NCBI GenBank assembly: GCA_018223185.1 | Contig: JAAEYW010000004.1 | Location: 1 to 64,000, forward strand | Length of the DNA stretch: 64,000 nt | Source of the DNA: Oceanospirillales bacterium | GTDB taxonomy: Bacteria; Pseudomonadota; Gammaproteobacteria; Pseudomonadales; Balneatricaceae | Direction of reading: 5' to 3' | Shown: piece by piece, positions 2,982 to 6,415 of the stretch | How positions within the stretch are numbered: the first letter of the stretch is position 1 | Layout: each line of letters opens with the position of its first letter | The notes under the pieces: generated by a model | Databases searched by the model: none | Told to the model about the DNA's origin: nothing | The model's input: only the letters and a program-made list of their open reading frames with translations | Program-made: the position numbers and the translations under genes

Positions 2982-3566
2982 ATGTCCAGCGAAAGCCAAG
3001 CATCGATAGATCATAAGCTGGTCAGGCGTGTTCAGGAAGGTGATAAAACCGCCTTTGATCTGTTGGTTAAGAAATACCAGCATAAAATTATTGGCCTGAT
3101 CGGACGGTATGTGTACGACCATCACGAAGCGATGGATGTCTCTCAGGAGGCATTTATCAAAGCCTACCGGGCGCTGCCTAAATTTCGTGGTGACAGTGCT
3201 TTTTATACATGGCTGTACCGGATTGCGATTAATACCGCAAAAAATCATCTGGTAGCCAAAGGGCGCAGGCCTCCGGATATGGATGTCGATGTTGATGATG
3301 CCCATCACTTTGAGGGTGATAGTGGGTTAAAAGATATTGAGACCCCGGAAAATAGTTTATATCGGGACGAACTGGCCAGAGTGGTCAGGGATGCGATGGA
3401 CAAGCTTCCTCAGGATCTCAGAGCGGCTCTGTCGCTGCGAGAGTTTGACGGGCTGAGTTATGAAGATATTGCTCAGATTATGGACTGCCCTGTCGGTACA
3501 GTGCGTTCACGCATATTCCGGGCGCGGGAGGCGATTGATAAAGAGATAGCCCCTTTATTGAATTGA
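2982..3566 (+). CDS. rpoE: RNA polymerase sigma factor RpoE/AlgU
   Basis: 194 aa; ECF sigma regions 2 and 4 (DHHEAMDVSQEAFIKAYRALPKFRGDSAFYTWLYRIAINTAKN; DGLSYEDIAQIMDCPVGTVRSRIFRAREAI). Confidence 0.97.
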   Translation: MSSESQASIDHKLVRRVQEGDKTAFDLLVKKYQHKIIGLIGRYVYDHHEAMDVSQEAFIKAYRALPKFRGDSAFYTWLYRIAINTAKNHLVAKGRRPPDMDVDVDDAHHFEGDSGLKDIETPENSLYRDELARVVRDAMDKLPQDLRAALSLREFDGLSYEDIAQIMDCPVGTVRSRIFRAREAIDKEIAPLLN

Positions 3567-3683: not shown

Positions 3684-4532
3684 ATGAGCGAACAACCCAA
3701 AGAAGCTCTTTCTGCATTGATGGACAATGAAGTTGGTGACTTTGAGTTACGCAGCCTGTTGAAGCAGAGTGCTGATAATAATGAGCTGTCTGGCCAGTGG
3801 CAACGCTATCATGTGGCCAGTTCACTACTGAAAAATGAACAACTGGGTTCCGGTGATATCAGTGCAGCTGTTATGGATGCGATCGATGCTGAACCTGCAT
3901 TAAAGATGGACGCTGTCGACACCTCAGCGAATGACGGGATTTCCGGTAAGAGCTTCTTTAAGCCGCTGATCAGTATGGCGGTTGCCGCGTCTGTTACCGC
4001 GGTTGTTATATTGGGGGGGCAGAACTTTGCTATTAATTCACCTCAGCCGGTCGATACCGGCCTGGCTCAGGCGCCACAACCCAGTACAACGATCGTACAG
4101 CCTGGTTTTACACCTTCCCGGGATCTGATGAGAGCACAGTTTGGTGCACCACGCATATCACATCAGACTGATAACAGTGATAAGAATATTATTCGTTTTA
4201 ATGCCGGACTGAATAGTTATATCCAACAGCACAATGTACTGCGTCAGGGGAAACTGGTGAGCTCTTCACCTGGCTGGATTCCGGAGGGTTATGCTCCTGT
4301 TAAGAATGCCATGGCTCCGGGTGCTGAGCTGACAGTATTCAGTAACGGCGTCAACTCCTTTACCCTGAGTATTGAACGAACGGGTGATGTCACTGTTCCT
4401 GAAGGCGCCACGCAGATGGGCAATATGGTTGCGATTGGTAAGAAAGTTGATCAGTTTTTTGTGACCGTGGTGGGCGATGTTCCTCTGATGGTTGCCGACC
4501 GTGTGGCTAACTCCATTGAGAAAATACAGTAA
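3684..4532 (+). CDS. rseA: RseA-type anti-sigma-E factor fused to a MucB/RseB C-terminal-like domain
   Basis: N-terminal SALMDNEVGDFELRSLL...WQRYHVASSLL (RseA_N), one TM (PLISMAVAASVTAVVILGG), MucA-like LNSYIQQHN, then PGWIPEGYAPVKNAMAPGAELTVFSNGVNSFTLSIE...VTVVGDVPLMVADRVANSI, which resembles the MucB/RseB C-terminal domain. Confidence 0.8.
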   Translation: MSEQPKEALSALMDNEVGDFELRSLLKQSADNNELSGQWQRYHVASSLLKNEQLGSGDISAAVMDAIDAEPALKMDAVDTSANDGISGKSFFKPLISMAVAASVTAVVILGGQNFAINSPQPVDTGLAQAPQPSTTIVQPGFTPSRDLMRAQFGAPRISHQTDNSDKNIIRFNAGLNSYIQQHNVLRQGKLVSSSPGWIPEGYAPVKNAMAPGAELTVFSNGVNSFTLSIERTGDVTVPEGATQMGNMVAIGKKVDQFFVTVVGDVPLMVADRVANSIEKIQ

Positions 4533-4538
4533 TTAATC

Positions 4539-4973
4539 ATGCTTGAAGAAAATGGCCGTGTAGTACGTCTCGAATCCGGACTGGTCTGGGTCGAGACGAT
4601 TAAGCAGAGTGCCTGCTCCAGTTGTAGTGCTCAAAAGGGATGCGGGCAGCGTCTTCTGGCCAGGATTGGTGATGGTAAGCGGATGGAGATTCAGGTTGAT
4701 AACCCTCAGCACCTTGAAGTAAAGGTAAATGATGAGGTCACCTTAGGTGTTGGCGAGAGATCATTTCTCACTGCATCATTTCTGGTTTATCTTCTGCCTC
4801 TGTTGGTGATGTTTATTGTTGCAGTGTTGGCGCAGGGTTACGGCCTCTCTGAGCCTGAAGTGATAGTCAGTGCGGCATTAGGCCTGGCAGGCGGATTTTT
4901 GTTAACCCGATTTATCTCTGGCCGAATAAGCCGGAGCTGCAGTTACCGGCCGGTGCTGCTTCGCAGAATCTGA
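4539..4973 (+). CDS. rseC: SoxR-reducing system protein RseC family
   Basis: 144 aa; N-terminal CSSCSAQKGCG, two TM segments, operon position between rseA and mucD. Confidence 0.9.
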   Translation: MLEENGRVVRLESGLVWVETIKQSACSSCSAQKGCGQRLLARIGDGKRMEIQVDNPQHLEVKVNDEVTLGVGERSFLTASFLVYLLPLLVMFIVAVLAQGYGLSEPEVIVSAALGLAGGFLLTRFISGRISRSCSYRPVLLRRI

Positions 4974-5011: not shown

Positions 5012-6415
5012 ATGAAACTAGTCAGAGCGACTTTTAGTCTGGTTCTTTTCTGGTTGTGCGTGAGCAGTGCGTATGCTGCACTGCCAGAGTTTAAGGATCT
5101 GGTTAAGCAGGCTTCTCCTGCTGTGGTCAATATTAGTACGGTCCAGCAGATTTCGACTCATGCTCGGGGTGTGCCGGATATGCAGCTTCCGGATGGCCAG
5201 GATATCCCGGATATCTTCCGTCATTTCTTTCGTATCCCTGAGGGATATGGCAATCCTCCACGCCATAAAGCGCCGCAATCTCTGGGGTCTGGCTTTATTA
5301 TTTCAGAGGATGGCTACATTCTGACCAATCACCATGTTGTGGCTGATGCGGATAAAGTAATTGTTCGGTTGAGTGACCGGCGGGAGCTTGAAGCGAAGAT
5401 AATCGGTTCCGATAAACGCTCAGACGTTGCATTGTTGAAAATAGATGCAACGGACCTTCCTGTGGTTAAAATTGGTGACTCGGATAAGGCTGAAGTGGGT
5501 GAGTGGGTGCTTGCTATCGGCTCTCCCTTCGGCTTTGATCACTCTGTTACCGCCGGTATTATCAGTGCGACGGACAGAAGTCTGGCAAATGAAACCTACG
5601 TGCCTTTTATCCAGACTGATGTTGCTATCAATCCAGGCAATTCGGGAGGCCCGCTGTTTAATATGGAAGGGGAGGTGATCGGTATCAACTCTCAGATCTA
5701 TACCCGTTCAGGTGGTTTTATGGGATTGTCATTTTCGATCCCTATGAATGTTGCCATGGAAGTCATGGACCAGTTGAAGGATAAAGGTAAAGTCAGCCGG
5801 GGTTGGCTGGGTGTTATTATTCAGGAAGTCAGCCGGGATCTGGCGGAGTCTTTCGGTCTGGATAAGCCTGGCGGTGCACTGGTCGCAAAAGTCTTGCCAG
5901 ACAGCCCGGCAGAAGCGGCGGGTATTCGTGACGGCGATATTATCTACAGCTTTAACGGTAATATGATAGATCGCTCAGGTGATTTGCCGCATCAGGTTGG
6001 ACGTATCTCTCCAGAAACCGATGCTAAAGTGGGGATTGTCCGCGATGGTAAGAAACAATCTGTTACTGTGACTATCGGTTTGTTACCGTCACAGGGCGAA
6101 GAGCTTAAAGCATCAGCCCGGCAGGAAGAGAAAGCATCAGCCAACCGCCTGAATATTCAAGTCAGTGCTCTGGATGATCAGTTGCGTGAACGTCTCAGTG
6201 TTACTGAGGGGGTTGTGGTCCGTCAGGTAGAAAGTGGTGCTGGCGCTGATTCTGGTTTGATGGTTGGTGATGTTATTACCATGCTTAATGGTAAAGAGAT
6301 CAATTCAGTTGAAACATTTGCCAGCACTGTTGAAGCATTACCGGATAACAAGGCGGTGCCGATGAGAATCGTGCGTCGTGGCAGTCCGATGTTTATCCCC
6401 CTTAAACTCAAATAG
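5012..6415 (+). CDS. mucD: DegP/MucD-type periplasmic serine endoprotease
   Basis: 467 aa; signal peptide, LTNHHVVADAD, SDVALLKID, NPGNSGGPLFN catalytic triad motifs and two PDZ domains. Confidence 0.95.
   Translation: MKLVRATFSLVLFWLCVSSAYAALPEFKDLVKQASPAVVNISTVQQISTHARGVPDMQLPDGQDIPDIFRHFFRIPEGYGNPPRHKAPQSLGSGFIISEDGYILTNHHVVADADKVIVRLSDRRELEAKIIGSDKRSDVALLKIDATDLPVVKIGDSDKAEVGEWVLAIGSPFGFDHSVTAGIISATDRSLANETYVPFIQTDVAINPGNSGGPLFNMEGEVIGINSQIYTRSGGFMGLSFSIPMNVAMEVMDQLKDKGKVSRGWLGVIIQEVSRDLAESFGLDKPGGALVAKVLPDSPAEAAGIRDGDIIYSFNGNMIDRSGDLPHQVGRISPETDAKVGIVRDGKKQSVTVTIGLLPSQGEELKASARQEEKASANRLNIQVSALDDQLRERLSVTEGVVVRQVESGAGADSGLMVGDVITMLNGKEINSVETFASTVEALPDNKAVPMRIVRRGSPMFIPLKLK

Follow-up and report, generated by a model that had tools for sequence, protein, structure and literature searches.

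In the window (the whole 64,000-nucleotide stretch of DNA that was analysed), the rpoE cluster of this Oceanospirillales bacterium contains one gene in which the sigma-binding domain of RseA and the C-terminal domain (CTD) of RseB are encoded as a single protein. The genes and features of the cluster are as follows.

2982–3566, + strand: rpoE, an ECF sigma factor of the sigma-E/AlgU type and partner of the fused anti-sigma factor (TIGR02939, 318 bits, above cut-off)
3684–4532, + strand: fused rseA-rseB(CTD) gene, 282 amino acids (open reading frame, Pfam matches, family-wide conservation)
3699–3914, + strand: RseA_N sigma-binding domain, residues 6–77 (PF03872, E 1.5e-13)
3963–4019, + strand: transmembrane segment, residues ~94–112 (SMAVAASVTAVVILG) (hydropathy maximum; 3.50 bits/position)
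4122–4145, + strand: putative site-1 (AlgW/DegS) cleavage motif, residues 147–154 (DLMRAQFG), assigned from its alignment with MucA 134-VLAG-137 and its conservation
4188–4241, + strand: MucA/RseA αI-like helix, residues 169–186 (IIRFNAGLNSYIQQHNVL) (conservation; model; MucA αI, PMC7400510)
4242–4262, + strand: fusion junction, residues 187–193 (helix-to-CTD spacing in the family)
4272–4520, + strand: MucB/RseB C-terminal domain, residues 197–279, in which N221 corresponds to MucB D247 (PF17188, E 7.7e-13; model and Foldseek; residue comparison)
4539–4973, + strand: rseC, in the usual place of rseB directly 3' of the fused gene (PF04246, 113 bits)
5012–6415, + strand: mucD-like HtrA (S1) protease, the last gene of the rpoE cluster (Trypsin_2, two PDZ domains)

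The open reading frame of the fused gene is uninterrupted; it starts with ATG and is preceded by a Shine-Dalgarno-like AGGAGT. rpoE is located immediately upstream, and the start of rseC lies 6 nt past the stop of the fused gene, confirming the original prediction that rseC directly follows rseA. That prediction had also proposed that one gene combines an RseA N-domain, one transmembrane segment and, within residues 190–282, a region resembling the MucB/RseB CTD. All of these parts were recovered. RseA_N scored 51.5 bits (Pfam cut-off 24) and MucB_RseB_C scored 48.8 bits (cut-off 30.1); by hydropathy, the protein has a single transmembrane segment, which is the most conserved segment of the family. 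The LolA-like N-terminal domain (NTD) of RseB (MucB_RseB, PF03888), expected to be missing, gave no Pfam match in the fused protein. Two NCBIfam models match in part. Positions 3–125 of the 216-position RseA model cover residues 6–119 with a score of 40.8 bits, below the equivalog cut-off of 263, which marks close equivalogs of E. coli RseA and not the wider RseA/MucA family; positions 222–314 of the RseB model, its last third, cover residues 193–279, also below the equivalog cut-off. The fused protein is not RseB, since the NTD is absent and it is not a separate periplasmic protein.

The genome is 99.4% complete, and the existence of a free rseB elsewhere in it was ruled out by genome-wide PF03888 and PF17188 searches, in agreement with the expectation that none would exist. 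The fused gene is the sole PF17188 match, and no protein of the genome passes the PF03888 cut-off. The best PF03888 match below cut-off (L001, E 0.067) is a LolA-like protein; its gene adjoins an RND/MMPL exporter gene, and it was rejected as an RseB on this ground. The fusion explains the apparent absence of rseB in these genomes, in which annotation pipelines would list a long RseA and no RseB.

An AlphaFold2 model was built with 23 relatives. The C-terminal part (residues ~200–276) is confident, with pLDDT of about 90, and Foldseek matched it to the RseB/MucB crystal structures 2v42, 3m4w, 2p4b, 6in9 and 6jau. The model also places a helix at residues 174–186. The LNSYIQQHN stretch, which had been described as MucA-like from the letters, is the equivalent of MucA αI, through which MucA binds the CTD of MucB; H183 corresponds to MucA H170 and Y179 to MucA Y166. 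Intramolecular docking of αI onto the CTD was not supported in an AlphaFold prediction of αI and the CTD with 66 sequences, in which αI reached pLDDT of about 50–56. αI may also dock in trans between two molecules, or not dock at all.

Named loci place the source genome in Amphritea, since proteins of 73–86% identity occur in most Amphritea species. Its relatives are Marinobacterium, Neptuniibacter, Neptunomonas, Nitrincola, Pontibacterium, Motiliproteus, Aliamphritea and Osedax symbionts. The family, coded f1 here, is taken to be the GTDB Nitrincolaceae. PF17188 matched in 113 of 117 f1 genomes. At every f1 locus read in detail, covering 16 of 16 sampled genera (one locus broken by a contig end was set aside), RseA_N and the CTD are in one frame without the NTD, and the same open reading frame holds both domains in all family members checked. 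More than 120 uninterrupted open reading frames of this architecture were found in 16 genera, in independent assemblies that include complete genomes. The few PF03888 matches in f1 belong to other proteins, whose genes are not at the rpoE locus. Elsewhere in the order, rseA and rseB are separate at every locus examined and RseB has both domains; one further locus, truncated at a contig end, was left unscored. None of the order's remaining sampled families has the fusion. The fusion is ancient and family-wide, and not a local accident of the source genome.

Two minor observations concern this family. LolA-like proteins with a length of ~295–394 residues (L033–L042; genus g13 and others), encoded away from the rpoE locus, score above the PF03888 cut-off; proteins of this type are possible false RseB calls in annotation. 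In Aliamphritea spongicola (G017, L074 / L158), a frameshift splits the CTD at G017:C1:1140353-1140621. The assembly of this genome is complete but its completeness is 78%, and the frameshift is either a sequencing error or a sign of a decaying CTD.

The known MucA-MucB system gives the frame in which the fused protein can be read. In the MucA-MucB crystal structure, MucA touches the MucB CTD primarily through αI (157–177), described as a ‘universal’ determinant, and αII (181–191) enters the cavity of the MucB NTD, the lipid A/LPS-binding domain, and is dispensable for binding; W158, R162 and H170 of MucA are needed for MucB binding (PMC7400510). AlgW cleaves MucA at 134-VLAG-137; in MucB it cleaves at the boundary of the NTD and the CTD, 211-TVAW-214 (PMC8545111). 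The fused protein is collinear with MucA: the transmembrane segment is followed by one conserved ‘RAQFG’ at the place of VLAG and by one helix ending in ‘YIxQH’. The distance from the cut site to the helix histidine is also similar, 32 residues here (A151 to H183) and 34 in MucA (A136 to H170). Over 82 non-redundant f1 members, conservation is 2.73 bits/position in αI, 2.69 in the CTD and 2.41 in the site-1 motif, compared to 1.29 and 1.01 in the linkers that flank the motif. We infer from these alignments that the motif is the site-1 cleavage site, with the cut predicted near A151-Q152. The collinearity supports the proposed in-frame deletion between adjacent rseA and rseB genes, in which rseA was kept through αI, and αII with the tail, the RseB signal peptide and the NTD were lost. 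The fusion thus keeps the αI/CTD pair and has lost the pair of αII and the lipid-sensing NTD.

Within αI, Y179 is present in 75 and H183 in 77 of the 82 f1 members. Among the equivalents of W158, R162 and H170, f1 keeps only the histidine; the R162 equivalent is G in 64 of 80 members, and one conserved R is located four positions further upstream. Owing to the changes at the W158 and R162 equivalents, the αI-CTD interface of f1 must, at a minimum, have been remodelled. A subclade with small genomes (L085, L086 and L076; genera g13 and g3) has the Y/H part of αI deleted and the fused CTD kept, so αI would be dispensable in these proteins.

We also compared the PF17188 and PF03888 match lists of one even sample of 369 gammaproteobacterial genomes. 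The CTD without the NTD occurs in five of them: our own genome, two members of family f148 and two weak cases (G447 and G582). f148 is the only family besides f1 with the same architecture in this sample. Like the f1 protein, the f148 protein has RseA_N, a transmembrane segment, αI (‘RVRSYLVRHDEN’) and the RseB CTD in one open reading frame, lacks the NTD and is encoded in the same operon; this was observed in five of six f148 genomes. Different from f1, it keeps the R162 equivalent, and the spacing between the helix histidine and the modelled CTD start is 34–39 residues, compared to 13–15 residues in 80/80 motif-bearing f1 members. In a tree of RpoE, RseC and MucD, f148 is placed outside the order, among other orders, and a single clade with f1 was marginally rejected (AU p 0.040); the tree of RseA_N and the CTD is compatible with a single origin with f148 (AU p 0.55). 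Because the junction differs and the operon-neighbour tree puts f148 elsewhere, its fusion probably represents a second, independent origin, which is likely, though not proven. The presence of the same architecture in a second family suggests selection or an easy mutational path, not drift in one lineage. The f148 loci are L234, L239 and L242–L246, and the genomes are 1.6–2.9 Mb in size. In the RpoE, RseC and MucD tree, the small-genome f1 members L304 and L305 are located beside other families with modest support (82). Owing to their GTDB-style kinship within f1 and the shared ‘IIRL’-type junction motif, we treated this placement as presumable tree noise.

The CTD itself has changed in both fusion families. 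The MucB structure paper lists D247, a CTD residue, as one of the conserved residues at the centre of the contact between the two domains. We compared the fusions with 76 non-redundant separate RseBs; D247 was named before the count, G272 and T300 were picked from a scan, and proteins of the same family do not count as independent cases. Position 247 is D in 76/76 separate RseBs, but in 22% of f1 (mostly N) and 20% of f148. G272 is present in 96% of the separate RseBs versus 50% of f1 and 0% of f148, and T300 in 82% versus 0% and 20%, respectively. The shifts of T300 to I/V and of D247 to N are common to both fusion families. These parallel changes fit what would be expected of an abandoned NTD interface, and they are a separate indication that the NTD has been lost.

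In E. coli and Pseudomonas, two signals together activate sigma-E: a peptide of outer-membrane proteins activates the protease, and LPS releases RseB. In our own genome, one AlgW/DegS-like gene for a membrane-anchored HtrA protease (L247, C1:86134-87240) adjoins hisD; its product probably makes the site-1 cut in the fused protein. The RseP gene, above cut-off, is at C2:141376-142725. With these two genes present, the RIP machinery is available. In the mechanism that we propose, the product is one membrane-spanning anti-sigma factor whose cytoplasmic RseA_N would hold sigma-E, and whose periplasmic part retains the site-1 region, αI and the CTD of RseB/MucB, to which αI binds in the two-protein system. 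The attached CTD would be a bulky cap and a brake that is always present in the periplasm and reduces the access of AlgW to the cut site, and it would keep the intact protein out of RseP. The PDZ tandem of RseP excludes intact RseA by size (PMC7728848); the folded CTD has, therefore, one plausible role even without a specific contact. With the lipid-release input removed, activation would come mainly or only from AlgW, responding to unfolded outer-membrane-protein peptides, and then from RseP.

On balance, we consider it probable that this ancient gene, in which rseA is joined to the 3' end of rseB, encodes a working anti-sigma factor that is cleaved by AlgW and RseP and lacks the lipid input of RseB. 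The low pLDDT of αI in the docking prediction, the loss of the R162 equivalent and the subclade that has deleted part of αI count against this reading. The original prediction that the sensing of envelope stress is changed is a sound inference from these data, and the envelope alarm of the family probably responds to fewer signals than that of E. coli or Pseudomonas. A broader proposal, to which we give a little less than an even chance, is that dual-input sigma-E control has been cut at least twice, independently, to a single-chain, single-input design by the same domain excision, across a whole marine family. The fusion offers a direct way to ask if the CTD of RseB is enough by itself to inhibit cleavage at site 1, and if the response can do without the lipid input.

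The same data can be read in other ways. The CTD may be mere folded mass, a degradation-proof tail that is too big for the PDZ filter of RseP until AlgW cuts and that has no regulatory contact with αI or the cut site. The size-exclusion filter is documented (PMC7728848), αI is not confidently docked in the model, and the small-genome subclade has deleted the αI motif yet keeps the CTD. However, elsewhere in the family αI is conserved as highly as the CTD, as Y179 and H183 illustrate, and this would need another cause; in addition, a plain cap would not require a MucB-specific fold. We regard this reading as rather unlikely. It is less probable still that the CTD has become a new sensor, in which the surfaces that formerly faced the NTD (247, 272 and 300) bind a new ligand or partner and in this way loosen or tighten the brake. 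The family conserves the CTD well, and the same NTD-facing or otherwise conserved positions are altered in both fusion families, but no candidate ligand or partner was found, and decay of the abandoned interface accounts for the changes without any new partner.

Lipid sensing may also persist in trans, through a strongly diverged protein of the RseB-NTD/LolA type encoded elsewhere. The weak PF03888-like matches, that of our own genome and those of some family members above cut-off, are what this reading has in its favour, and all are LolA-like and off the rpoE locus. The own-genome match adjoins the exporter gene, however, and the D247 position is relaxed, which is unexpected if an NTD were still docking; we consider such persistence highly improbable. 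No weight was given to misassembly, frameshift or mis-annotation. The frameshift in the CTD of A. spongicola shows that errors occur at this locus, but the uninterrupted frames from independent assemblies, complete genomes included, have the same junction spacing. Any genome-specific deletion or artefact is ruled out by the family-wide recurrence.

The fused protein shares with MucA-MucB of Pseudomonas aeruginosa the operon position, the RseA_N-type domain, the transmembrane segment, the cut-site region, αI with its Y and H, and the fold and sequence of the MucB CTD (E 5e-13 to 6in9). Different from MucA-MucB, it is one polypeptide without the MucB NTD or αII, the W158 and R162 equivalents are changed, and D247 is mostly N. 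Compared to RseA-RseB of Escherichia coli, the domains are the same, the DegS/AlgW and RseP protease types are present, and the CTD matches 2p4b and 3m4w; however, E. coli makes RseB as a periplasmic protein of its own, complete with the lipid-binding NTD, whereas the fusion holds only the RseB CTD. No published RseA-RseB fusion, whether by architecture or by taxa, was found in open-access full text; domain databases may list the architecture automatically. The parts and the pathway are known, and it is the arrangement and its family-wide fixation that we did not find reported.

As a separate observation, 38 of 245 sampled genomes of the order, for example f37 and f45 genomes, have no PF17188 match at all, so that repeated loss or reduction of RseB within the order is probable. 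Like RseA of the RseB-less gammaproteobacteria in this order, the fusion apparently lacks the lipid-sensing NTD arm; unlike them, it retains the CTD, in fused form.
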